Below, one piece after another: positions 6,504 through 29,403 of a DNA stretch of 30,380 bases. Numbering within the stretch: position 1 is the first letter of the stretch; each line of letters opens with the position of its first letter. The translations under genes and the position numbers were made by a program. The notes beneath the pieces are model-generated. The model worked only from the letters and a program-made list of their open reading frames with translations, was not told the DNA's origin and did not search any database. Source of the DNA: a virus; the IMG/VR virus record IMGVR_UViG_3300017593_000243, positions 1-30,380 of that record; one strand, 5' to 3'.

Positions 6504-7553
6504 TTATCCTCCATAAACATATCCGTATCTTCTGTGTAAAATTGCTTTATACCAAGCCTCGTGCCAATTACGATCTTTATTAGCTCTAATATTACAAGAT
6601 CTACAAACTGTTATAAGATTTTCTGGTCCGCAGGACTTTTTATTATAATTAATATGATGCACGTGTAACATATCATCTTTTCCCCAACAATCTGGATTCA
6701 TACATTTATAATCATCACGTTCTTTTACAAAATCTTTTAAATCTCTAGTCCAATCTTGACAATATGGTTCTTTTGAAATACCGCCTTTCCAATTAGGACT
6801 ATTACAACCTGATTTATTTATAATTGCACATGTTGGACATCTATATCCTTGCTTCCAACTATCCCAAGTTATAAAATGTCTATGACCTTTAGGACAAATA
6901 TATTCCAATTTTTGATAAGAATTTATATATATTTTAGTCAAAAGTTCATAATCGTATTCTTCAAAACATTCTCTGACAAATTCTATTGTCAATTTTCGAT
7001 CATTAATAGCACATGTAGGACACCTTCTACCATATTTCCAATTATCCCAATTCATTGAGTTTCTATGCCCATTTGGACAAATATATTCTAATTTTTGTTT
7101 AGAATTTATATATTTTTTTGTTATAAGGTTATATTTATCATTTTCAAAAGATTCTTTAACAAATTCTATCGAATGTTTTTTATTATTATTAAAACATGTT
7201 GGACATCTATGCCCTTGTTGCCAATTTGTCCAAGTCATAGAATGCCTATGCCCTTCTGGACAAATATAATCTAATTTTTGATGGTTATTTTTATACACCT
7301 TGGTTAAAAATTCATAACCATGTTTTTCAAAAGATTCTCTAATAAATTCTATAATTAATTTCATAGAATTATAATAACATGTTGGACATCTCTGTCCTTG
7401 TTGCCAATTTGTCCAAGTCATAGAATGCCTATGACCCTCCGGGCAAATATATTCCAATTTTTGTTGACTATTTATATATACTTTAGTTAAAAGAATATAT
7501 AATTCTTTAAAAAATTCATCCTGAACAAATTCTATTGTTAATTTTTTAGCCAT
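6504..7553 (-). CDS. HNH homing endonuclease with four zinc-module repeats
   Basis: 349 residues from the start MAKKLTIEF. A longer reading frame reaches 7601, but ATG 7551-7553 forms a TAATG overlap with the upstream stop and matches the start of the paralogue at 27530, so the short form is preferred. Four modules of ~59 residues (about 1-60, 61-119, 120-179, 180-238) each carry L..KxYxN..QKL.YICPxGHR...W..W..G.RCPTC, with C/H/C/C zinc ligands. A linker with NWKGGISKEPYCQDW follows, then an HNH domain (about 270-349) with C-x4-C, HHINYN, NLITVCRSCN. The modules probably bind DNA and the HNH domain cuts. It is free-standing, between two virion genes, with no intron signs. Confidence 0.9.
   Translation of the reverse strand: MAKKLTIEFVQDEFFKELYILLTKVYINSQQKLEYICPEGHRHSMTWTNWQQGQRCPTCYYNSMKLIIEFIRESFEKHGYEFLTKVYKNNHQKLDYICPEGHRHSMTWTNWQQGHRCPTCFNNNKKHSIEFVKESFENDKYNLITKKYINSKQKLEYICPNGHRNSMNWDNWKYGRRCPTCAINDRKLTIEFVRECFEEYDYELLTKIYINSYQKLEYICPKGHRHFITWDSWKQGYRCPTCAIINKSGCNSPNWKGGISKEPYCQDWTRDLKDFVKERDDYKCMNPDCWGKDDMLHVHHINYNKKSCGPENLITVCRSCNIRANKDRNWHEAWYKAILHRRYGYVYGG
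6507..6512 (-). promoter_or_regulatory. ribosome binding site for the metallophosphoesterase, embedded in the HNH gene end
   Basis: On the minus strand the last codons of the HNH gene read GGA GGA TAA. The GGAGGA is placed six bases before the ATG at 6498-6500, an ideal spacing. The selfish gene therefore ends in sequence that keeps the next phage gene translated. Confidence 0.7.
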
Positions 7554-8542
7554 TATCGACTCGCGTTGCGGTGAAAAACAAGTGTTGCCGAAACAGCCCA
7601 ATTATGATCTGCAACACTATCATTTGTAACAGTTGACATCTTTAATCGCATCCCTTGACCAAGCTGATCTGTATCAGAACAGCTTAAAGGCATGAACCCA
7701 CTATTTAAAAGTATTATTTTATTTGCAAATCTAGCAAAAACCATCTCCATTGGAAACATATTATATCTTCCAGTACCATATGGATTTGGTGTTATATTTT
7801 CAAATAAATTAGTACTTGAATTAAAATCAGCATCCCAAAAAGCTGTTGGTGGCTCATCTAAATCATTATTAGGCATATAAACTAATCCACCTGTTGGACT
7901 TGTTAAATCACTAGTTATCTCAACATTGCCATTTCCCTGTGCAGGAATTATCATATAACCATGATATAACGCATAATTAGTATTTGTTCCTGTAACTGTT
8001 ATTTCTGTAGATACACTAACCATTTCAAGAGAAATAGTATCACCATTACATTTATCCCACATCAAAAGTCCTTCATGAATCCATGTCTCATTTTTTATGA
8101 TATTAAAATCACACACAACAAAATCAGTTGCACTCCCTGAAATAGTATGCATTAATAAGAATTTTTCTCCACAACCAACATCATTTATATTTGTTATATC
8201 ATCTCCAGCCCCTGTCCAATATGTTCTAGTACCAATTTTACGAGATGTTTGATGAACTCTTAATTTACCAGAACGATCTCGTAATTCATCTGATAAATCT
8301 ACCTGTTGCACATCAACTTCAAAAGGTACACCATCATGTGTAGATACAATACCAGATAATGTTGTTTCATCTATAGTTGTAAGTGCGCTCTTAAATAAAA
8401 TATCACAAGCATCTGTGTCAGCATTTATATGATCTAATGCTATCACTATATCTGAACTTATTATTTCAGAATATAACTTACTTGTATCAACAACTCCATT
8501 TAAAAAATCTATTAATAAATAGTTATACGAAACTAAACTCAT
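7553..8542 (-). CDS. putative tail/fibre structural protein
   Basis: 329 residues; ATG preceded by GGAGAATAAAA. No family recognised. The first ~110 residues look like a mixed-fold attachment region (VVDTSKLYSEIISSDIVIALDHI). The rest is beta-rich with typical virion-fibre composition (TGTNTNYALYHGYMIIPAQGNGNVEITSDL). It has two T-[VIL]-S-G words (TTLSGIV, HTISGSA). It follows the 239-residue tail gene and its stop shares one base with the ATG of the inserted HNH gene. A receptor-binding or baseplate-distal role is inferred from context. Confidence 0.6.
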   Translation of the reverse strand: MSLVSYNYLLIDFLNGVVDTSKLYSEIISSDIVIALDHINADTDACDILFKSALTTIDETTLSGIVSTHDGVPFEVDVQQVDLSDELRDRSGKLRVHQTSRKIGTRTYWTGAGDDITNINDVGCGEKFLLMHTISGSATDFVVCDFNIIKNETWIHEGLLMWDKCNGDTISLEMVSVSTEITVTGTNTNYALYHGYMIIPAQGNGNVEITSDLTSPTGGLVYMPNNDLDEPPTAFWDADFNSSTNLFENITPNPYGTGRYNMFPMEMVFARFANKIILLNSGFMPLSCSDTDQLGQGMRLKMSTVTNDSVADHNWAVSATLVFHRNASR

Positions 8543-17922: not shown

Positions 17923-18909
17923 TTATTTGCAAATCAAAGACGCTAAATAATGGTAACTACATTTTAAATCTTTATGTGACTTTTTATTATGACACTTTTG
18001 ACAACAAGCTATCCCATTATCTGGATCTAATGCATAAAATCCATGTGTCTTTTTTGGTAGAATATGATGTGCAGTATTTGCTACATCCCCACAATATTGA
18101 CAAATATAATTTTCTCTTTTTAGAACAACATCTCGCCAGATTTTTAATTCATAAATAGTATAATTTAAATTACTAACTACCATATTATTTATAGACCTAT
18201 TATGAATAAAACAAGAGTGTTTACATTTGTCAGAACAATAAAACCTATTATTGCCCCCATAATTACCTTTTAATGTTTGTATTCTATTTGTTACCGCTAT
18301 AATAGATGGTGTATACCATTTTCTACACCTATTATTTGTACATCTTACCTGTAAAATTTCTAAATTATTTTGTAATACACACCGTACTTCTTCACACCAA
18401 TCAATTTGTTTAGCATAAGTATTATACAAAGGAATATTTAATTTTTTAACCCCGCCTTTATAAGAACTATTATTTTCTCCAATATTTTTACCAATATTAT
18501 TCTTACTTATTTTATTTTTAGATTTTTCAGTATGATGTTTACCATAAAAATGATTATTCTTACCAGATCTAGAAATAGACATTTTTAATTTAGACTTTTC
18601 AGTATGTTTTTTACCTGTGCTCGATTTTTTCATTTTTTCTATTGATTTTTTAGAATGTTTTTTACCAAACCAAGGATGTTTTTCACCAGACATTGCTTTA
18701 CTTATTTTCTTCTTAGTATTTTCTGAAACAACCATTGATTTTTTTAAACAAGATATAGAACAATAATCACTCTCTCTTGTATGTACAGTTAAATAGGATT
18801 CACCACATCTTTTACAAGGATATTTTTCTACATATGTAGTATTATTTTTTCTTAAAAAACCATTACGTGTTAAATATAATCCTTCTAAATTACCCCAACA
18901 AATTCTCAT
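17923..18909 (-). CDS. HNH homing endonuclease with NUMOD3 repeats
   Basis: 328 residues. A zinc-finger-like start (CKRCGESYLTVHTRESDYCSISC) is followed at about 60-140 by several NUMOD3 repeats (SKKSIEKMKKSSTGKKH, TEKSKLKMSISRSGK), the DNA-binding helices of phage homing endonucleases. Another Cys-rich segment (CTNNRCRKWYTPS, FYCSDKCKHSC) leads to a C-terminal HNH domain: CQYCG, AHHILPKK, NGIACCQKCHNKK. The first 20 bases overlap the end of the next upstream endonuclease gene, to which its C-terminal half is clearly related. Free-standing; no intron sign. Confidence 0.88.
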   Translation of the reverse strand: MRICWGNLEGLYLTRNGFLRKNNTTYVEKYPCKRCGESYLTVHTRESDYCSISCLKKSMVVSENTKKKISKAMSGEKHPWFGKKHSKKSIEKMKKSSTGKKHTEKSKLKMSISRSGKNNHFYGKHHTEKSKNKISKNNIGKNIGENNSSYKGGVKKLNIPLYNTYAKQIDWCEEVRCVLQNNLEILQVRCTNNRCRKWYTPSIIAVTNRIQTLKGNYGGNNRFYCSDKCKHSCFIHNRSINNMVVSNLNYTIYELKIWRDVVLKRENYICQYCGDVANTAHHILPKKTHGFYALDPDNGIACCQKCHNKKSHKDLKCSYHYLASLICK

Positions 18910-19723
18910 TTTTCATACAATTCCTATTTGCCAACATACCAAAAGAATATTCTCCTGTATGCATTTGATTATGACACTTTTGACAACATGCTATTCCATT
19001 ATCTGGATCTAACGCTAAATAAATATTAATTTTTTTAGGGATTTTATGATGAGCAAGAATTGCTTTTTCCCCACATATTTCACACTTACCATTAGCACAT
19101 TCAATTACTTCTTTTGACCATAGTCTCAAGTCACTACTTTTTAAACTATTTCTATGTTTTCTAGGATTAACACCTATTGGATATTTCTTTTTATGAAAAA
19201 TACTACAATTAATTTTACACATATCAGAACAATAGAATCTATTTTCTCTATCTATATTACCTTTTATAAATTGACAACGTTGCTCACATACAATACGTTC
19301 AGGAATAAACCACCTATTACACAATATACATTTTACTTCTAAAATATTAAAATTGGATTTATTTCTTCTAACTTCTTCTACAAGTGATAATTGTTTTGCA
19401 TATGTGTCATACAATGGGACATTAAGTTTTACCACGTCACCTTTTGATTTTCTTTTAGAAATAGCAATACATTCTTCGATTGATTTCTTATTGCCAGTTA
19501 AAGATTTTGCTATTTTATTTCTAATAACAACTGATTTATTAGCACATTGCCTGCTACAAAAAACTCCAGGATAGAACGTTCTCATAAAATATGATTTACC
19601 ACATTCTTTACACTCTAAAATGAACTTGTAATAAACACTTCCACGTCTATATGAATCTAATTTATATGAGTATGAAAAATCATCTATTATTTCTAAACCA
19701 TTACTATCTAATAATATATTCAT
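18890..19723 (-). CDS. HNH homing endonuclease
   Basis: 277 residues. N-terminal zinc-finger-like segment (CKECGKSYFMRTFYPGVFCSRQC), one degenerate NUMOD3-like helix (RNKIAKSLTGNKKS), then the same Cys-rich middle as its neighbour (VKLNVPLYDTYAKQLSLVEE, CILCNRWFIPE, FYCSDMCKINC). It ends in HNH (CEICGEKAILAHHKIPKK, NGIACCQKCHNQMH). It starts two bases after the stop of the EDxHD-type gene, without a clear SD, so it probably depends on translational coupling. It and 17923-18909 are tandem paralogues that have kept the C-terminal half and diverged in the DNA-binding part. Confidence 0.87.
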   Translation of the reverse strand: MNILLDSNGLEIIDDFSYSYKLDSYRRGSVYYKFILECKECGKSYFMRTFYPGVFCSRQCANKSVVIRNKIAKSLTGNKKSIEECIAISKRKSKGDVVKLNVPLYDTYAKQLSLVEEVRRNKSNFNILEVKCILCNRWFIPERIVCEQRCQFIKGNIDRENRFYCSDMCKINCSIFHKKKYPIGVNPRKHRNSLKSSDLRLWSKEVIECANGKCEICGEKAILAHHKIPKKINIYLALDPDNGIACCQKCHNQMHTGEYSFGMLANRNCMKNENLLG

Positions 19724-19725
19724 TA

Positions 19726-20811
19726 TTACTTAAACCTTCCACTACCATTGCCTACCCCACCACCATTACCACGACCCTTACCACCTTTTTTACAAGGTCT
19801 ATTATTTTGATTCCTTCCGCCTGAAACACCTTTACCTGATCCATCTTTTCTATTCTTAGATCTATTCATATTATTACCTCTCAATAAAAAATTATTAACT
19901 GATAATTTACCAATACTGTCATTCCATTCTATATCACTAACTCTTAGTAATTCGATACGATTATTCTTACAAAATTTAGTTTTTATATTATCATTTTTAA
20001 TTGTAACTTCTTTTTGATGCCAATATACACCGTCACATTCAATAGCTTTATTTAAATCAGGTAAATATAGATCTAATTCTAAAAATTTACCTGTATTTTT
20101 ATTAAACACTATAGTTCTATCATTATAAACTACTTTACCATGATATATACTATTTACAAACTCTCTAACTTCTAATTCAAATCTTGATGTATAATTATTT
20201 TGTAAATAACAAGTCATACACCTTACTCCTGTTTTATTTTTTAAATCTCTAAAATTATGAAATGTTGTAGTCCATTCATGTCCTTTTGGGCATTTTAATA
20301 TAATTGGTAATTTGCTATTTATATATTCTTTTGACAATAAAATGTAACCACGTTCTTCTATATAATTTCTTATATATTCTATTGTATGCTTATTAGTTTT
20401 CCCACTAACATATTCTTTTGCGTTAGGGTTTAATTTTCTATAAACTTCCGCTCTTTTTAATAAACATTTTTCTCTATTATTCTTATAATATTTTCTTCCT
20501 TTTTCTATTAATTCATTTCTATCTCTTCTTTTATGACTATTAACATTTTTTCTTTTAACTCTTTCTTTCTCACAATCTAAATTACCACAATACACTTTCT
20601 TTTTATAATATGTAGAAAATTCATTACCACAAGCTAAACAATTTCTAATATATTCTTTATTATATTTCTTTCTATTTACTTTTTTCCATTGTTCTTTTTC
20701 CTTCAATCTTTTAGCTTTTTCTTTACAATCTAAACAATATTTTTGTGAACCAGAAGTGGGTATAAAAATATTTTCACACCCATCCATCTGACAATTTTTT
20801 TCTTTATACAT
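19726..20811 (-). CDS. EDxHD/PD-(D/E)XK-type homing endonuclease with Gly-rich tail
   Basis: 361 residues. Two Cys-rich fingers at about 7-30 and 58-80 (CQMDGCENIF...YCLDC; CLACGNEF...YCGNLDC), a basic helical linker, then at about 142-201 one copy of the zinc module found in the HNH genes (KCPKGHEW...RCMTC). Residues about 211-295 form a Vsr-like nuclease: FELEVREF (Glu), ELDLYLPD (Asp247), IECDGVYWHQ (His near 265), KNDNIKTKFCKNN and LLRVSDIEW. This is the layout of the I-Bth0305I (EDxHD) homing family. The last ~45 residues, beginning at an internal Met near 315, are a Lys/Arg/Gly-rich tail unlike the family. Lies directly downstream of the capsid gene. Confidence 0.82.
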   Translation of the reverse strand: MYKEKNCQMDGCENIFIPTSGSQKYCLDCKEKAKRLKEKEQWKKVNRKKYNKEYIRNCLACGNEFSTYYKKKVYCGNLDCEKERVKRKNVNSHKRRDRNELIEKGRKYYKNNREKCLLKRAEVYRKLNPNAKEYVSGKTNKHTIEYIRNYIEERGYILLSKEYINSKLPIILKCPKGHEWTTTFHNFRDLKNKTGVRCMTCYLQNNYTSRFELEVREFVNSIYHGKVVYNDRTIVFNKNTGKFLELDLYLPDLNKAIECDGVYWHQKEVTIKNDNIKTKFCKNNRIELLRVSDIEWNDSIGKLSVNNFLLRGNNMNRSKNRKDGSGKGVSGGRNQNNRPCKKGGKGRGNGGGVGNGSGRFK

Positions 20812-20885: not shown

Positions 20886-21324
20886 CTATAAAGATCTATC
20901 AATTATTCCCATTCCTAACATACGGGCATCCAAACACGCAAAACCCTGATCTGACCATCCAAAAAACCCTTGCTTTTGTCGCCTAAGCAATGTTGGATCA
21001 TCGAATGCCTCATATTCCTTACGAATAGGCATTACTAATGAATCATTAGTTGAAAGATCAAATCCAAGAACTTGAGTTTCACCCAATGAATCTATTGTCC
21101 CATCGGCTGCTGTCTTATTAGGATTATCTGGTGTATAACTATTATAAGACCCTGTTCCATCAACAGTAAATTTCCCATATTCGGAGTCACTACTATTAAT
21201 ATTATAAAGTCCTACAGCTCCAAGATGTTGTACCTCATGGAGAGTTACATTCCAAATTTTACCCATACCAGATGCTGTAAAAATTTCACGCCTGGTAATT
21301 GGATCAATATCTGTCCTTTTATTC
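20886..21324 (-). CDS. major capsid protein, exon 3 (C-terminal part)
   Basis: Third exon of the split MCP (join 22563-23192, 21598-21608, 20886-21324). From the predicted splice site it reads as the last part of an ATG codon, then NKRTDIDPITRREIFTASG. The DIDPITRREIF block is the kind of conserved turn seen in HK97-fold capsid proteins of large phages. Translation ends QGFACLDARMLGMGIIDRSL. An internal ATG at 21266 opens the frame but has no SD, and the conserved residues lie upstream of it, so it is not a real start. Upstream in frame a TAA stop occurs at 21342-21344, inside the intron. Confidence 0.85.
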
Positions 21325-21597
21325 CATTTTAAAAAAATGAGTTACTGAATTTCTTCAATAACACTGCATATTACTATGCAGAGTAGACTATATCATCACC
21401 CTTTGAATCCGGGTGGCTAGCGCTAAAAAATTTATTACATTAAATAATACTAATAATAAATTTTAATAAGTCGTTACACCTTCTTGTTATACACAAGCTT
21501 GGCTCGGTATTGCCCTTATATTGATCCACGATAAAAGGGTGTTCACCGAATTCACTAACTTATCACCTATTTGTTTCCAAATAGGGCGACCATTTTG
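21325..21597 (-). ncRNA. group I intron 2 in the major capsid gene (no ORF)
   Basis: 273 nt. P1: exon CGAT (21598-21601) pairs with GTCG (21587-21590), with U.G at the splice site. P2: seven-base-pair hairpin 21566-21585. P4-P6 core: GGGCAATACCGAGCCAAGC (21497-21515), a textbook P/Q sequence. R: AACGACTT near 21468-21476; S: ATGATATAGTCT (21385-21396); GACT/AGTC form P7. P8: CACCC/GGGTG hairpin 21397-21415. P9: CTGCATA-GTAA-TATGCAG at 21364-21381. P9.1: nine pairs with a GAAA loop at 21341-21362. A simple AT-rich stem fills the P7.1 place (subgroup IA-like). Ends in G at 21325. Boundaries are inferred from pairing and reading frame. Confidence 0.82.
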
Positions 21598-21608
21598 ATC
21601 GGTCCATT
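21598..21608 (-). CDS. major capsid protein, micro-exon 2 (predicted, 11 nt)
   Basis: Predicted exon AATGGACCGAT between the two introns. Its 5' bases AATGG can pair with CCATT in intron 1 (P10). Its 3' bases CGAT pair with GTCG of intron 2 (P1). With these limits exons of 630, 11 and 439 nt sum to 1080 nt, an exact frame, adding residues N-G-P and the start of M between ADIR and NKRTDID. Purely inferred; splicing needs RNA evidence. Confidence 0.55.
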
Positions 21609-22562
21609 CTAATTGTTTATTCTACAAGTCATTTCTGCTTGTCCCCAATTTTTCAACTGGATATCGGAACATATCATCATCCTATTAATTAGGATGCAAA
21701 GCGCTATAAAGGTAATTTATAATTCATACATTCTACATCTTCAACAAAAAACTTTACAACATCAATAAAAGTAGAAACATCTTCTTTTTTATGGCATCTT
21801 AATTTGTAACCATAATCTTTAAATTTATCAATCATACCATTATGATTAACATTAAATTTTATATTAAATTTCTTACAGAAATATTCACTAATCATATTAC
21901 ACTCATCTTTAGTAAACCCATCAGTATGTAAACAAACTGTTCTATAAGTAAATTCACCTCTTTTATATGTATGTAAAGATCCATCATCCATATACCAAAT
22001 TGCTATAGATAATGGGCTTAATCTATTTAATATAGATTTTTTAACTATTTTCTTTGCGCCAGAAATTCTATTATTAATCGATGGTTTTCCACCAATATAA
22101 AAATCTTTATATATATAATGAAAATTTTTTCTATGTTTAATATAAGCATCATAACCCTTAAAAATCTTAGTCCCCATTTTTTTTATAGTATTATATATAC
22201 TTACATTATCAACATATGCCTTAATAAGTTCTATTTTCCAATCTAAATATTCTTTGGAATCTTCTTTATGTGTTATTCTCAATTCTGTTCTATTCCATAA
22301 AGGCCCTTTCTTAGATTTTTTTTCTGGACCTTTTATTAATTTAAATCTATTAAAACAACCATCTCCTAACAACATTCCTATTACAGCACAATTAAAATCG
22401 TATTTACTTCTAACTACTAAATTACCTTTTTTTGTTCTCTGAACTTTCATAGCTTTCTCCTATGCTTAGCTGCTGATTAGCTTATTTTTTCAATTTAGCT
22501 TTCCAGCAATTCACTTTGTTATTCATTCAATCATTACTGACTGAAGCCGCAAATGGTTTTTT
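21609..22562 (-). ncRNA. group I intron 1 in the major capsid gene (encodes LAGLIDADG endonuclease)
   Basis: 954 nt. P1: exon CCGT (22563-22566) with GCGG (22547-22550), U.G at the splice site. P2: TTCAGTCA-GTAA-TGATTGAA at 22526-22545. P/Q-like core AAGCTAATCAGCAGCTAAGC at 22464-22483. R: GTTCAGAGAAC at 22434-22444; S: ATGATATGTTCCG at 21665-21677; GAAC/GTTC make P7. P8 hairpin 21678-21696. P9 with GAAA loop at 21645-21660. P9.1 at 21624-21642. The endonuclease ORF fills the P7.1 place between R and the 3' strand of P3. Ends CAATTAG at 21609. Confidence 0.85.
21704..22450 (-). CDS. intron-encoded LAGLIDADG homing endonuclease
   Basis: 248 residues with two LAGLIDADG-type motifs: AVIGMLLGDG at 22-31 (Asp30) and LSPLSIAIWYMDDGSL at about 144-159 (Asp155/156), so one chain supplies both catalytic sites. 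The second motif, S-P-x-x-I-A-x-W-Y-M-D-D-G, is of the LAGLIDADG_2 kind. AGGAG lies six bases before the ATG. The first codons run through the R element of the intron core, and the TAG stop abuts the 3' strand of P3, so the ORF is tightly fitted into the ribozyme. It should cut intronless capsid genes near the exon junction and promote intron spread; a splicing-helper (maturase) role is also possible. Confidence 0.92.
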   Translation of the reverse strand: MKVQRTKKGNLVVRSKYDFNCAVIGMLLGDGCFNRFKLIKGPEKKSKKGPLWNRTELRITHKEDSKEYLDWKIELIKAYVDNVSIYNTIKKMGTKIFKGYDAYIKHRKNFHYIYKDFYIGGKPSINNRISGAKKIVKKSILNRLSPLSIAIWYMDDGSLHTYKRGEFTYRTVCLHTDGFTKDECNMISEYFCKKFNIKFNVNHNGMIDKFKDYGYKLRCHKKEDVSTFIDVVKFFVEDVECMNYKLPL

Positions 22563-23192
22563 ACGGATATCTGCAGCATCTTCCGGTGCCAAATACAAAT
22601 CTGTTAATACTCTACCTGTTCTTTTAAATCCTACTATCATTTTATTTATAAGTTCTTTTGATAAATATCCAGCACCTGTTGATGTTGGATTGATCTCATA
22701 AATAGGAGCTGGCCTTGAACCTAAAAGGCCCTTCCCTGAAAATGAAGATGTGGCGGCGGGTATAATTACTCGCCACCCACATTCTTCTTCATAGTTAGCT
22801 AAATCTTTAGCCGCTCTAGCTGCAGCTCTCTGTGGAATACTTATACGAGAATCTCTCGCATACGAAATTTTCCAATCTGCAGCAGCATCTATAGTAAAGG
22901 TAGGAACAACTACGTCCTCACCAATACCCTCAATAAAATTCTGAGCAATATATCCTAATCCAGGCAGTACCCAAACAGGGATCTCAAAATCTTCAGCTAT
23001 TGGATAAGAAGCTTGTGCTCCTGGCTCCAACTGCTCAACTGTAAACAATTGACGCATAATAGATTCAAGTTCTATTTTTTGTAATATCGGAATTGTTAAC
23101 GCAGCTGCAAATGCTTGATAAGCTGCCAAACCTTCTGAGGTCTGCACATTAGCTGTAGCTTTAAATAATTCTTTCATTTTCTGTTCGTCCAT
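22563..23192 (-). CDS. major capsid protein, exon 1 (N-terminal part)
   Basis: First exon, 210 codons, from MDEQKMKELF with a strong TAGGAGGAAT upstream. It holds the N-arm and much of the HK97-like fold (FAAALTIPILQKIELESIMRQ, GYIAQNFIEGIGEDVVVPTF, ISYARDSRISIPQRAA, VLTDLYLAPEDAADIR). The unspliced frame continues eleven codons (KKPFAASVSND) to a stop at 22527; those codons are intron. Joined to 21598-21608 and 20886-21324 it gives a 359-residue protein, a normal size for a capsid subunit. It follows scaffold and decoration genes, as expected. Confidence 0.87.
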
Positions 23193-26312: not shown

Positions 26313-27530
26313 CTAAATATATATATAATTGTATCGTCTATGTAAAATTGCTTTGTACCAAGCCTCATGCCATTTTCGATCTTTATTTGCTCTAGAATTA
26401 CAAGAACGACAAACAGTAATAAGATTTTCTGGTCCACAGGACTTTTTATTATAATCTATATGGTGGACAGTTAAATCTTTATAACTATTTAATAAACAAT
26501 ATGGATTTAAACATTTATGTCCATCACGTTCCTTAACAAAATCTTTCAAATCATTAGTCCAATCTTGACAATAAGGTTCTTTTGAAATACCGCCTTTCCA
26601 ATTCGAGTTACCACTACCAGAATTATTTATTTTCCAACATGTTGGACATCTATGACCACATTGCCAACTATTCCAATTCATTGAATGTTTATGACCTTTA
26701 GAACAAATATAATCTAATTTTTGATGACTATCAATATATACTTTTGTTAAAAGTTCATAATCATATTTTTTAAAAGCTTCGTTAACAAATTCAATGGTTG
26801 GTTTTATATTACCAAAACAATAAAAACATCTTTGACCCTGCTTCCAATCCCCCCAAGTTATAGAATGTCTATGACCTTCGGGACAAATATATTCTAATTT
26901 TTGGTGAAAATTTATATACACCTTTGTTAAAAGAATATATTTTTCTTTCTCAAAAGATTCTCTTATAAATTCTATTGTAGGTTTTACTTTTCCAAAACAA
27001 TAAAAACATCTTTGTCCTTGTTGCCAATTACCCCAAGTTATAGAATGTTTATGGCCTTTCGGACAAATATAATCTAACTTTTGTTTAACATTTATATACA
27101 CTTTAGTTAAAAGAATATATTTTTCTTTCTCAAAAGATTCTCTTATAAATTCTATAGTTAATTTCGCTTTTCTAGAACAATAAGGACATCTCACATTCTG
27201 TTGCCAATCACTCCAGGTTATAGAATGTATATGACCTTTAGGGCAAATATAATCTAACTTTTGTGTATTATTTATATATATTTTGGTCAGAAGTTCAAAT
27301 TTATCTTTTTTAAACTCATCTTTAATAAGATCAATTGTTAATTTTTCTTTGAAACAATAAAAACATCTTTGTCCACGTTGCCAATGCCCCCAAGTCATGG
27401 AATGTATATGACCTTTCGGACAAATATAATCTAACTTTTGTTTAGCATTTATATATTCTGTTGTTAAAAGGATGTAACCTTTTTTTTCAAAAGACCATCT
27501 TATATACTCTATTGTTAATTTCTTTGCCAT
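26313..27530 (-). CDS. HNH homing endonuclease with five zinc-module repeats
   Basis: 405 residues. Five ~59-residue modules, each with L..KxYI...QKL.YICxKGH.HS..W..W..G.RC..C (the third and fourth are near-identical through SFEKEKYILLTKVYIN). The linker NSGSGNSNWKGGISKEPYC leads to an HNH domain (CLNPYC, LTVHHIDYNKKSCGPENL, VCRSCN). Longest of three paralogues here. AAGGAG for its start lies in the last codons of the portal gene. It sits between portal and protease genes, a usual homing site in essential head genes. Free-standing; no intron features around it. Confidence 0.9.
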   Translation of the reverse strand: MAKKLTIEYIRWSFEKKGYILLTTEYINAKQKLDYICPKGHIHSMTWGHWQRGQRCFYCFKEKLTIDLIKDEFKKDKFELLTKIYINNTQKLDYICPKGHIHSITWSDWQQNVRCPYCSRKAKLTIEFIRESFEKEKYILLTKVYINVKQKLDYICPKGHKHSITWGNWQQGQRCFYCFGKVKPTIEFIRESFEKEKYILLTKVYINFHQKLEYICPEGHRHSITWGDWKQGQRCFYCFGNIKPTIEFVNEAFKKYDYELLTKVYIDSHQKLDYICSKGHKHSMNWNSWQCGHRCPTCWKINNSGSGNSNWKGGISKEPYCQDWTNDLKDFVKERDGHKCLNPYCLLNSYKDLTVHHIDYNKKSCGPENLITVCRSCNSRANKDRKWHEAWYKAILHRRYNYIYI

Positions 27531-27540
27531 ATAATTATCT

Positions 27541-29403
27541 TTATAACTCCTTTACAAATTTAATATATTGTTCTTCGGTAAGCACAACACTTGCACCTTT
27601 TAAAAACATGGCATATTCAATATCAGTCATATTTTTTACGCTTGTGGCTTTTTTAGGTTCTTTAACCTTTATTTTATCTTTTGGGTCTGTGCTTTTAGTT
27701 TTAGTTGTTACTTGTCCTTTTGGTCTACCTGTACTTGGTGTTCCTTTCGGAGCTTCCTGAGTTGGTTGTTTAGAATTTTGAAAGGGTGAACCATGTAATC
27801 CAAAAATACCATCTTGAACAACAGGTAATTCCTTCTCCATATTTTTTAATTCGTTTGGATAATCAAAACCAAGGGTCTCTAAAACTGTTTTATAACTTAA
27901 TGCTCTTCTATCTAAATAAGATGAAAGAATAGACATATATAAAACTGAATCTTTAAGTATGCTTTCATCCCATCTTATTTTTGGATATTTTTTAAAATTC
28001 AATGCCTCAGCAATTTGGGCATACTCACGATATATCCAACGAGTTACTTGCCTTCGAGCATAACTGATCTCTTCTCCGACCCCCTTCAGCAACATCTCCA
28101 TTTCAGATGTAGATACCTCTCCGACCCCATCAATTAATGCTCGTGGTACAGATAATCCTGCTGTTATTTCATTATTTACTTGTTTATATTTATCTTCACC
28201 TAAAATATTTTCAATTTCAGGTGATACAATTTTTTCAACCTGTAATGTATGATTCCAAACTACGGAGAAACTTTTGGAGCTAGTATTAAATAGATTTGCA
28301 ACAGCCTCAAGTTCTTGTTGAGAAACAACAGGATACTCATCATTCCCAATTGTTATTTTTAATATGTAATTAGTTATACCGTCTAATGTGCTCAAATCAG
28401 CATCCCGTAAAGATTTTTGATATTCAATAGCTTCAAATATTCGTCCAATTCTTGGTTTCGCATATCTTTCATAAGGTTGTTTTCTATATGAAATATTTCC
28501 TACCAATTTTGAATCTAATTTATACGGTTTAGAATCCTTAATAGCAGACTTTAATTCTGAAGGTAATGCTTTTAAAATTATCTTCTCATCATCAGTTAAG
28601 TCTTTTTGTGGCTTTTTAACTAAATCCTCTAATTCTTTTGGTATTTCCATAGAATAAGATTTCTTATCAAATAATAAACTACCATCTACAGAAATTAGTA
28701 AAGGGTTTAATACAGTATATGCCACAGGTAAATAATTTTTAGACCATGTATTTTTTTTAGCTGCTTTTAATGATTTATATTCTTTTGATTCTACTAATCT
28801 TTTTAATTCTTGTTCATATTCTAAATCATATTTTTTACCTAATTCACGTATGCGATTCACTTCTTTTCTTTCAGAAGCATTCATAAAAGATACTTTAGGT
28901 TCATATTTTGATACAACTTTAAATGTAAATACATTTCCAACTTTAAAGAAATCCAAAAATATCCATTCTAATACTTCATGAAATCCAACATCGTGAACCC
29001 ACGCATCATAAAACTTTTTTATATTATCATCATCTATATCATTTTCAAATCCTTTACTAGCTAGTGACGCTAATAAATTTATAGAGGATCCAACTAATGG
29101 TTCAGTATTATAATACTTCATAGCTTTTTTAGTAACATTTTCATAAGTATCTTCATGAACATTTTTTCCAACAGATAAATCTAAGTAATTTGATGATAAA
29201 GCAGTTCTATCAATAATTGAAGCCTTATCTTTATATACATTAGGAACTACAGAATCATCAAGAAACGCTAAAGTTTTTTGTGTTGGACGCAACATAAACG
29301 TAGATGTTCCTGAATCCTCATTTACTGAAATGGATTCTATACCAATCTCTGGGTATTTTTCTTTAAGTTCTGAAGTTAATTTTTCTAATTTTTTACTATC
29401 CAT
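27541..29403 (-). CDS. portal protein
   Basis: 620 residues; AAGGA before the ATG. Portal features: helix-rich N-terminal part with AMKYYNTEPLVGSSINLLAS, the WIFLDFFKVGNVFTFK segment, a wing with NYLPVAYTVLNPLLISVDG, and the core SLRDADLSTLDGITNYILKI, VVWNHTLQVEKIVSPEIENI and AGLSVPRALIDGVGEVSTSEME ('crown/stem' helices follow at RQVTRWIYREYAQIAEAL). The C-terminal ~100 residues are a Lys/Pro/Thr-rich linker and a short helix. It forms the dodecameric DNA gate of the capsid. Context (followed by protease, scaffold, MCP) is fully consistent. Confidence 0.88.
   Translation of the reverse strand: MDSKKLEKLTSELKEKYPEIGIESISVNEDSGTSTFMLRPTQKTLAFLDDSVVPNVYKDKASIIDRTALSSNYLDLSVGKNVHEDTYENVTKKAMKYYNTEPLVGSSINLLASLASKGFENDIDDDNIKKFYDAWVHDVGFHEVLEWIFLDFFKVGNVFTFKVVSKYEPKVSFMNASERKEVNRIRELGKKYDLEYEQELKRLVESKEYKSLKAAKKNTWSKNYLPVAYTVLNPLLISVDGSLLFDKKSYSMEIPKELEDLVKKPQKDLTDDEKIILKALPSELKSAIKDSKPYKLDSKLVGNISYRKQPYERYAKPRIGRIFEAIEYQKSLRDADLSTLDGITNYILKITIGNDEYPVVSQQELEAVANLFNTSSKSFSVVWNHTLQVEKIVSPEIENILGEDKYKQVNNEITAGLSVPRALIDGVGEVSTSEMEMLLKGVGEEISYARRQVTRWIYREYAQIAEALNFKKYPKIRWDESILKDSVLYMSILSSYLDRRALSYKTVLETLGFDYPNELKNMEKELPVVQDGIFGLHGSPFQNSKQPTQEAPKGTPSTGRPKGQVTTKTKSTDPKDKIKVKEPKKATSVKNMTDIEYAMFLKGASVVLTEEQYIKFVKEL

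Follow-up and report, generated by a model that had tools for sequence, protein, structure and literature searches.

The major capsid gene of the virus contig analysed here, a stretch of 30,380 bases that we call the window, lies on the minus strand (23192-20886) and is split by two distinct group I ribozyme cores, recognised by a scan with the Rfam model RF00028 and by reading of the sequence. The best explanation of the whole, to which comparative sequence analysis leads us to give a probability of roughly 0.6, is that two adjacent group I introns enclose a 12-nt exon encoding EWTD, that this exon is retained, that the upstream intron (intron 1) would end in an adenosine (omega-A), and that it has spread by homing. 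The two introns are unlike each other: intron 1 carries a homing endonuclease gene, intron 2 is small and has no ORF. A sequence-only reading had already described a capsid gene with two group I introns; the covariance searches detailed below bear this out for both.

The exon boundaries were defined by comparison with relatives of the capsid protein, collected from IMG/VR together with relatives of the intron endonuclease. Homologs read DIR-EWT[D/E]-TDIDP in 128 of 128 intact sequences, with no insertion; E211, W212 and T213 are invariant in all of them, with 122 carrying D at position 214 and the other 6 E. In the window, GAATGGACCGAT (EWTD) lies directly 5' of intron 2 and ACAGATATTGAT (TDID) ten bases inside the exon 3 of the sequence-only reading. 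The micro-exon should therefore be 12 nt long and exon 3 start at 21314, and the spliced capsid most likely comprises 356 residues, with EWTD and without NGPM or NKR. According to tblastn and profile comparison with the 128 intact homologs, exon 1 (22563..23192, minus strand) has 630 nt, covers residues 1-210 and ends in ...ADIR (ATC CGT^, where ^ marks a junction), and exon 3 (20886..21314, minus strand) has 429 nt including the stop codon and starts with ACA GAT ATT GAT. The micro-exon between them (21598..21609, minus strand) encodes Glu-Trp-Thr-Asp, residues 211-214; it is defined by conservation in the 128 homologs and by the GAATGG that follows the same intron in a second capsid locus, L082.

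We enumerated 10,869 native-length joins and scored them with the profile of the homologs. The top join was 630+12+429 nt (CGT^..ATTA^GAATGGACCGAT^..AAGG^ACAGAT) with a score of 96.5, tied only by a G/U-ended variant of intron 1 that yields an identical protein and is chemically implausible, whereas native-length joins with U/G at all four ends reached a maximum of 72.4. In the capsid of phage G, ADIRAWGQNEFDPVT aligns to ADIREWTDTDIDPVT, gap-free at the micro-exon region. Outside the clade residue 211 differs (A in phage G, K in Tunturi_5), while the W is kept in both.

These results modify the exon structure first proposed, with 630, 11 and 439 nt joining to 359 residues that contain DIR-NGPM-NKR-TDIDP. 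A micro-exon of about a dozen bases stands, but homology makes it 12 nt instead of 11, and the predicted protein is at odds with all 128 homologs. An 11-nt exon, AATGGACCGAT, with omega-G in both introns and continuing into GAATAAAAGG.. (NGPM-NKR) or, as the nearest repair, into GACAGAT.. (NGPM-TDID), would have four canonical ends and stay in frame in the window, also with exon 3 from 21315. It would, however, replace the conserved EWT, whose W extends to phage G and Tunturi_5, it scores 72.4 against 96.5, and its 3' end of intron 1 runs into a stop in L082, all of which makes it highly improbable. The 5' splice sites of that reading (22563^22562 and 21598^21597) coincide with the homology junctions. 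Its 3' ends are not borne out; it assumed that both introns end in G, an assumption whose apparent exception in intron 1 is visible only by comparison.

Intron 2 (21315..21597, minus strand) is a group I intron of 283 nt that starts with CAAAATGG and ends in ...AATAAAAGG; its class follows from RF00028 and its fold, its 3' end from homology. An Rfam scan over the whole window missed both introns, and a focused scan detected both, with intron 2 matching the full model (positions 1-253) at 21609-21364 with 75.6 bits (gathering score 50) and E=6.2e-19, and thus possessing a P3-P9 core; its folding relative to shuffled sequence gave z = -4.6. In P1 of intron 2 (21587..21601, minus strand), read directly from the sequence, exon CGAU (21601-21598) pairs with GUCG (21590-21587), with a U.G pair at the splice site. 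By homology intron 2 ends in the expected guanosine (AAAAGG^ACAGAT), most likely at 21315, 10 nt further than the 21325 first assigned. Ending nine bases earlier, with 21324 as the boundary (AAATGG^AATAAAAGGACA, so that GAT is joined to AATAAAAGG), would place NKR between EWTD and TDID; this join is in frame and also ends in G, and by direct sequence intron 2 has a longer tail after P9.1 than introns of the family. Yet no homolog has an insertion here, and the tail is of nearly normal length once the 15-nt hairpin CATTTTTTTAAAATG is discounted, rendering the earlier end distinctly unlikely. Five further loci with a core word in common with intron 2 (L208-L212) lack this capsid gene.

Intron 1 (21610..22562, minus strand) is a 953-nt group I intron that starts with AAAAAACC and ends in ...CAATTA, an apparent omega-A, as delimited by a partial match to RF00028, the copy in L082 and the homology junction. 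Its ORF (21704..22450, minus strand; 248 aa) encodes a LAGLIDADG homing endonuclease of the LAGLIDADG_2 type (PF03161, E=1.7e-26) and lies between both strands of P7 and P3, its start overlapping the 5' strand of P7 as well as P6a. With its core split by this ORF, intron 1 matches RF00028 only in part, over P4-P6 (22511-22431), with 40 bits and E=2.7e-8, under the gathering score of 50. The remaining elements can be read directly from the sequence. P1 (22547..22566, minus strand) pairs exon CCGU (22566-22563) with GCGG (22550-22547), again with U.G at the splice site; thus, the U at the 5' exon end is paired with a G in both introns (CCGU/GCGG and CGAU/GUCG), as had been noticed from the sequence, and both sites agree with the homology junctions. 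The P10 guide CCATTT (22556-22551, minus strand) lies within the P1 region. The 5' strand of P3 (22512..22518, minus strand), CAAAGTG, pairs with CGCTTTG at 21703-21697, past the ORF, and the 5' strand of P7 (22433..22439, minus strand), GAGAACA, would pair with TGTTCC at 21671-21666 in our reading of the core; the guanosine-binding pair in P7 is a normal G-C.

Comparison of copies supports this architecture. In the window, L082 and L083, P1 of intron 1 is unchanged (3/3 copies), and in the five 5' helices all 24 of 24 pairs are kept; five of the 24, in P2 and P5, are changed on both sides (compensatory changes relative to L083), a result reached in 1/500 shuffles. A covariance model built on the 5' core also picks it out immediately upstream of some 30 further LAGLIDADG ORFs. 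Together, the P4-P6 match, the covariation in P2 and P5 and the P3 and P7 strands on either side of the ORF identify a conserved P3-P9 core. Introns with the same 5' core and a LAGLIDADG ORF also occur at a conserved site, NTD^YEGEI, of a different phage gene in L104, L107, L111, L112, L115, L116, L117, L123 and L126.

The copy in L082, a locus without intron 2, occupies the same site and is likewise 953 nt long, with 94.9% identity to intron 1 of the window, 49 differences, no gaps and an intact ORF. The exons of the two loci are only 74-75% identical, indicating recent horizontal transfer of a mobile intron. An exact-pattern search with the P7/P9 region of intron 1 and with exon 2/intron 2 found no new copy of either intron, the hits in L206, L207 and L222-L225 being chance matches to the patterns, and a search for the endonuclease of intron 1 in bacterial genomes returned distant relatives only.

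A terminal guanosine is taught as a near-absolute rule for group I introns; it is near-universal, not definitional, and introns with omega-A are expected to splice poorly. To our knowledge, natural exceptions are confined to Coxiella, where Cbu.L1917 reportedly ends in A instead of omega-G (as Raghavan, Hicks and Minnick are said to have described in 2009). At the homology junction, intron 1 appears to end in A and thus departs from the rule: the sequence is ...CAATTA^ in the window and ...CGATTA^ in L082, both before GAATGG, these being the two copies from which the 3' end is known. In L083, the 3' half of intron 1 is missing and the guide reads CCACTT, for which the model predicts GAGTGG in the 3' exon. 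One base downstream, UUAG^ would be the chemically preferred, normal end, and it is there, at the G of 21609, that the sequence-only reading had closed the intron. In L082, an ATTAG^ end alters nine codons and then runs into a stop, and among the alternatives checked only ATTA^ gives a normal protein. With a normal capsid protein in the window, intron 1 extends from AAAAAACC to ...CAATTA.

The rest of the family points to an exception. Elsewhere in the same capsid family, about nineteen further introns are compatible with U/G ends, and U/G ends also fit eight LAGLIDADG introns related to intron 1 in another phage gene (at NTD^YEGEI). The A end thus looks like a derived feature and not like a misread family rule; it is probably a derived exception, which perhaps arose when one of two neighbouring Gs was lost. 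A missing G through sequencing error was considered and rejected, as the same end occurs in the L082 intron, which differs at 49 positions. In intron 1, P9.0 pairing speaks for omega-A; in intron 2, however, AAAAGG^ fits less well than AAAAUG^, and a family intron in L139 (site 61) breaks the P9.0 pattern; we therefore gave P9.0 little weight in placing 3' sites. As omega-G is near-universal and the binding pair in P7 a normal G-C, an omega-A intron of this kind should splice slowly. We nevertheless file intron 1 as group I on account of its core, since the terminal G is not definitional.

Three other accounts of this end have to be weighed. In the first, the 5' cut falls one base later and intron 1 ends in omega-G (CGTA^AAAAACC...ATTAG^AATGG), resulting in E211K and DIR-KWTD-TDID. 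Such a join is in frame and of native length in both the window and L082, the ligated CCGUAAAUGG would need one wobble less in pairing with the guide, and K is found at this position in the distant Tunturi_5 capsid (FRKWTQENID), E211 not being universal outside the clade. It is nonetheless fairly unlikely: the 5' cut would come after an A-U pair, a base beyond the U.G pair by which the site is normally fixed, the clade has E in 128/128 members, and other introns of the family fit a U at -1.

In the second, intron 1 closes at an omega-G further upstream (TTGTAG^AATAAAC[A/G]ATTAGAATGG), CGT being joined to AATAAACAATTAGAATGG in a spliced RNA that contains AATAAACAATTA. The exon would then measure 24 nt and add four residues before EWTD, NKQL in the window and NKRL in L082. 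This gives U/G ends and an open frame in both loci, and the single difference between them in the 94-nt 3' segment sits in this very tail. Against it, the 128 homologs and phage G are all without an insertion here, P10 would be lost even though the 6-bp GAAUGG/CCAUUU match sits precisely at the homology junction, and an A would precede omega where all other family introns but one have U or C. We hold this end to be unlikely, and all the rival junctions, whether they entail E211K or an NKQL or NKR insertion, to be less likely than the preferred model.

The third accepts the A end and takes it as a sign of decay: the G at the end of intron 1 was recently deleted, the insertions now splice poorly, and the capsid gene is decaying or its product made mostly by skipping. 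Poor splicing is what established knowledge predicts for omega-A introns, and the contigs are metagenomic fragments. However, the same end is present in two phages whose introns differ at 49 positions without gaps and with the ORF intact, and all exons are open and conserved, which renders decay very unlikely. We thus retain the reading in which intron 1 most likely completes splicing at A, as a derived exception common to two phages.

In the preferred model, the two introns use different bases of the micro-exon. P10 of intron 1, whose ability to pair CCAUU(U) with (G)AAUGG had been correctly noted, engages exon nt 1-6 (GAAUGG) through CCAUUU in 6 bp contiguous with P1, as seen directly in the sequence, while P1 of intron 2 uses exon nt 9-12 (CGAU); two bases separate them. 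The competition for the same bases suggested by the sequence-only reading is thus not supported, and both sites can be recognised. Capsid genes lacking intron 1 were probably cleaved at the boundary of codons 210 and 211 (CGT^GAATGG) by its LAGLIDADG endonuclease, which thereby spread the intron. Intron 2 would be a small, ORF-less intron whose insertion site lies 12 bp downstream (GAT^ACA). Self-excision would be expected of each ribozyme, with guanosine attacking just behind the U that forms the U.G pair of that intron and the freed exon attacking the 3' splice site in the second step; with the EWTD exon kept, the result would be the normal 356-residue capsid. As two cores are unlikely to act together on a 12-nt exon, splicing is probably stepwise, and its order may be enforced by the lack of space for two ribozymes on 12 nt. 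Were the exon skipped, the capsid would be exactly four residues shorter, with the frame kept.

Interruptions are common in this capsid clade. Of 159 capsid loci examined, which partly overlap and so do not amount to a census, 31 contain introns, some of them two to four; about ten sites are affected, and in L082, L083 and selected loci among L128-L200 these lie near residues 58, 61, 66, 71, 81, 90, 94, 137, 202, 210 and 214. In L083 (2600-2900), intron 1 and another intron near residue 202 flank a 24-nt exon (CCTGAGGATGCAGCCGATATCCGT), in a gene with at least four introns, indicating that micro-exons arose at least twice in this clade.

The protein encoded by the interrupted gene has a match in phrog_2522, 'major head protein', and a search with a profile built from 36 intact homologs recovers the solved major capsid of Bacillus phage G (6WKK) with E=2.5e-16, establishing homology; an AlphaFold prediction of the capsid gave no usable model (pLDDT 37). 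A tblastn search with the capsid of the window against 50,697 phage records produced no match at 1e-5, while an intact homolog as query matched phage G and Tunturi_5. No close relative was found in this isolate collection (50,697 records), although many IMG/VR contigs have this capsid. The introns reside in a tailed phage that has not been cultivated and is distantly related to the huge phage G. The capsid is distantly related to those of Bacillus phage G and Tunturiibacter phage Tunturi_5, and a portal-like protein upstream of it (27541-29403, minus strand) is closest, at a distance, to Bacillus phage G. Directly downstream of the capsid gene (17923-20811, minus strand) lie three consecutive free-standing endonuclease-like ORFs: one NUMOD3-HNH, one HNH, and one with weak matches to MTES_1575/PvuRts1I-like endonucleases. 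Elsewhere in the window, three repeat proteins (2-505, 6504-7601 and 26313-27530, minus strand) consist of repeats of ~60 residues (of the type LTIEFIRESFEKEKYILLTKVYINVKQKLDYICPKGHKHSITWGNWQQGQRC) followed by similar HNH-like tails, and their repeat number varies by copy.

Short exons between group I introns have precedents. In the virion-protein gene orf142 of Staphylococcus phage Twort, a 23-nt exon lies between the group IA2 introns I2 and I3, and both its inclusion and its skipping are known (PMC10136302). The gene described here resembles it in encoding a phage virion protein and in having two group I introns around a very short exon, but the exon has 12 nt instead of 23, the introns are dissimilar, and one has a LAGLIDADG ORF and an apparent A end. 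In the 23S rRNA gene of Coxiella burnetii, a 34-nt exon separates two unlike group I introns, Cbu.L1917 and Cbu.L1951, and is subject to skipping (PMC10136302). Coxiella also combines a short exon with dissimilar group I introns, one of which reportedly ends in A, yet in a bacterial rRNA gene, whereas here a mobile phage intron sits in a protein gene. In the major capsid gene of mycobacteriophage LittleE (Cluster J), RT-PCR confirmed a group I-like intron that contains a LAGLIDADG ORF (PMC3706429), but this is a single intron with U/G ends and its ORF on the opposite strand. Among the Bastillevirinae, rNDPL of phiNIT1 contains a small exon between two introns and TerL of SIOphi shows natural exon skipping; these are other genes, and the source, in the parts consulted, gives no exon size and reports no odd 3' end (PMC11878797).

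Among the reports found, the 12-nt exon is the shortest between paired group I introns. We would give even odds to the full proposition that intron 1 is a functioning, mobile phage intron that finishes splicing at an adenosine, beside the shortest exon among the reports found between two phage group I introns. If true, omega-A in a mobile phage intron would support both the high demand of a highly expressed structural gene and horizontal spread. The natural pair formed by the window and L082, together with the G-ending relatives, would provide material for testing what compensates for omega-A, and the 12-nt exon a test of how two ribozymes share one site. The clade as a whole, with capsid introns at about ten sites, offers a rich natural set for following the spread of phage introns.
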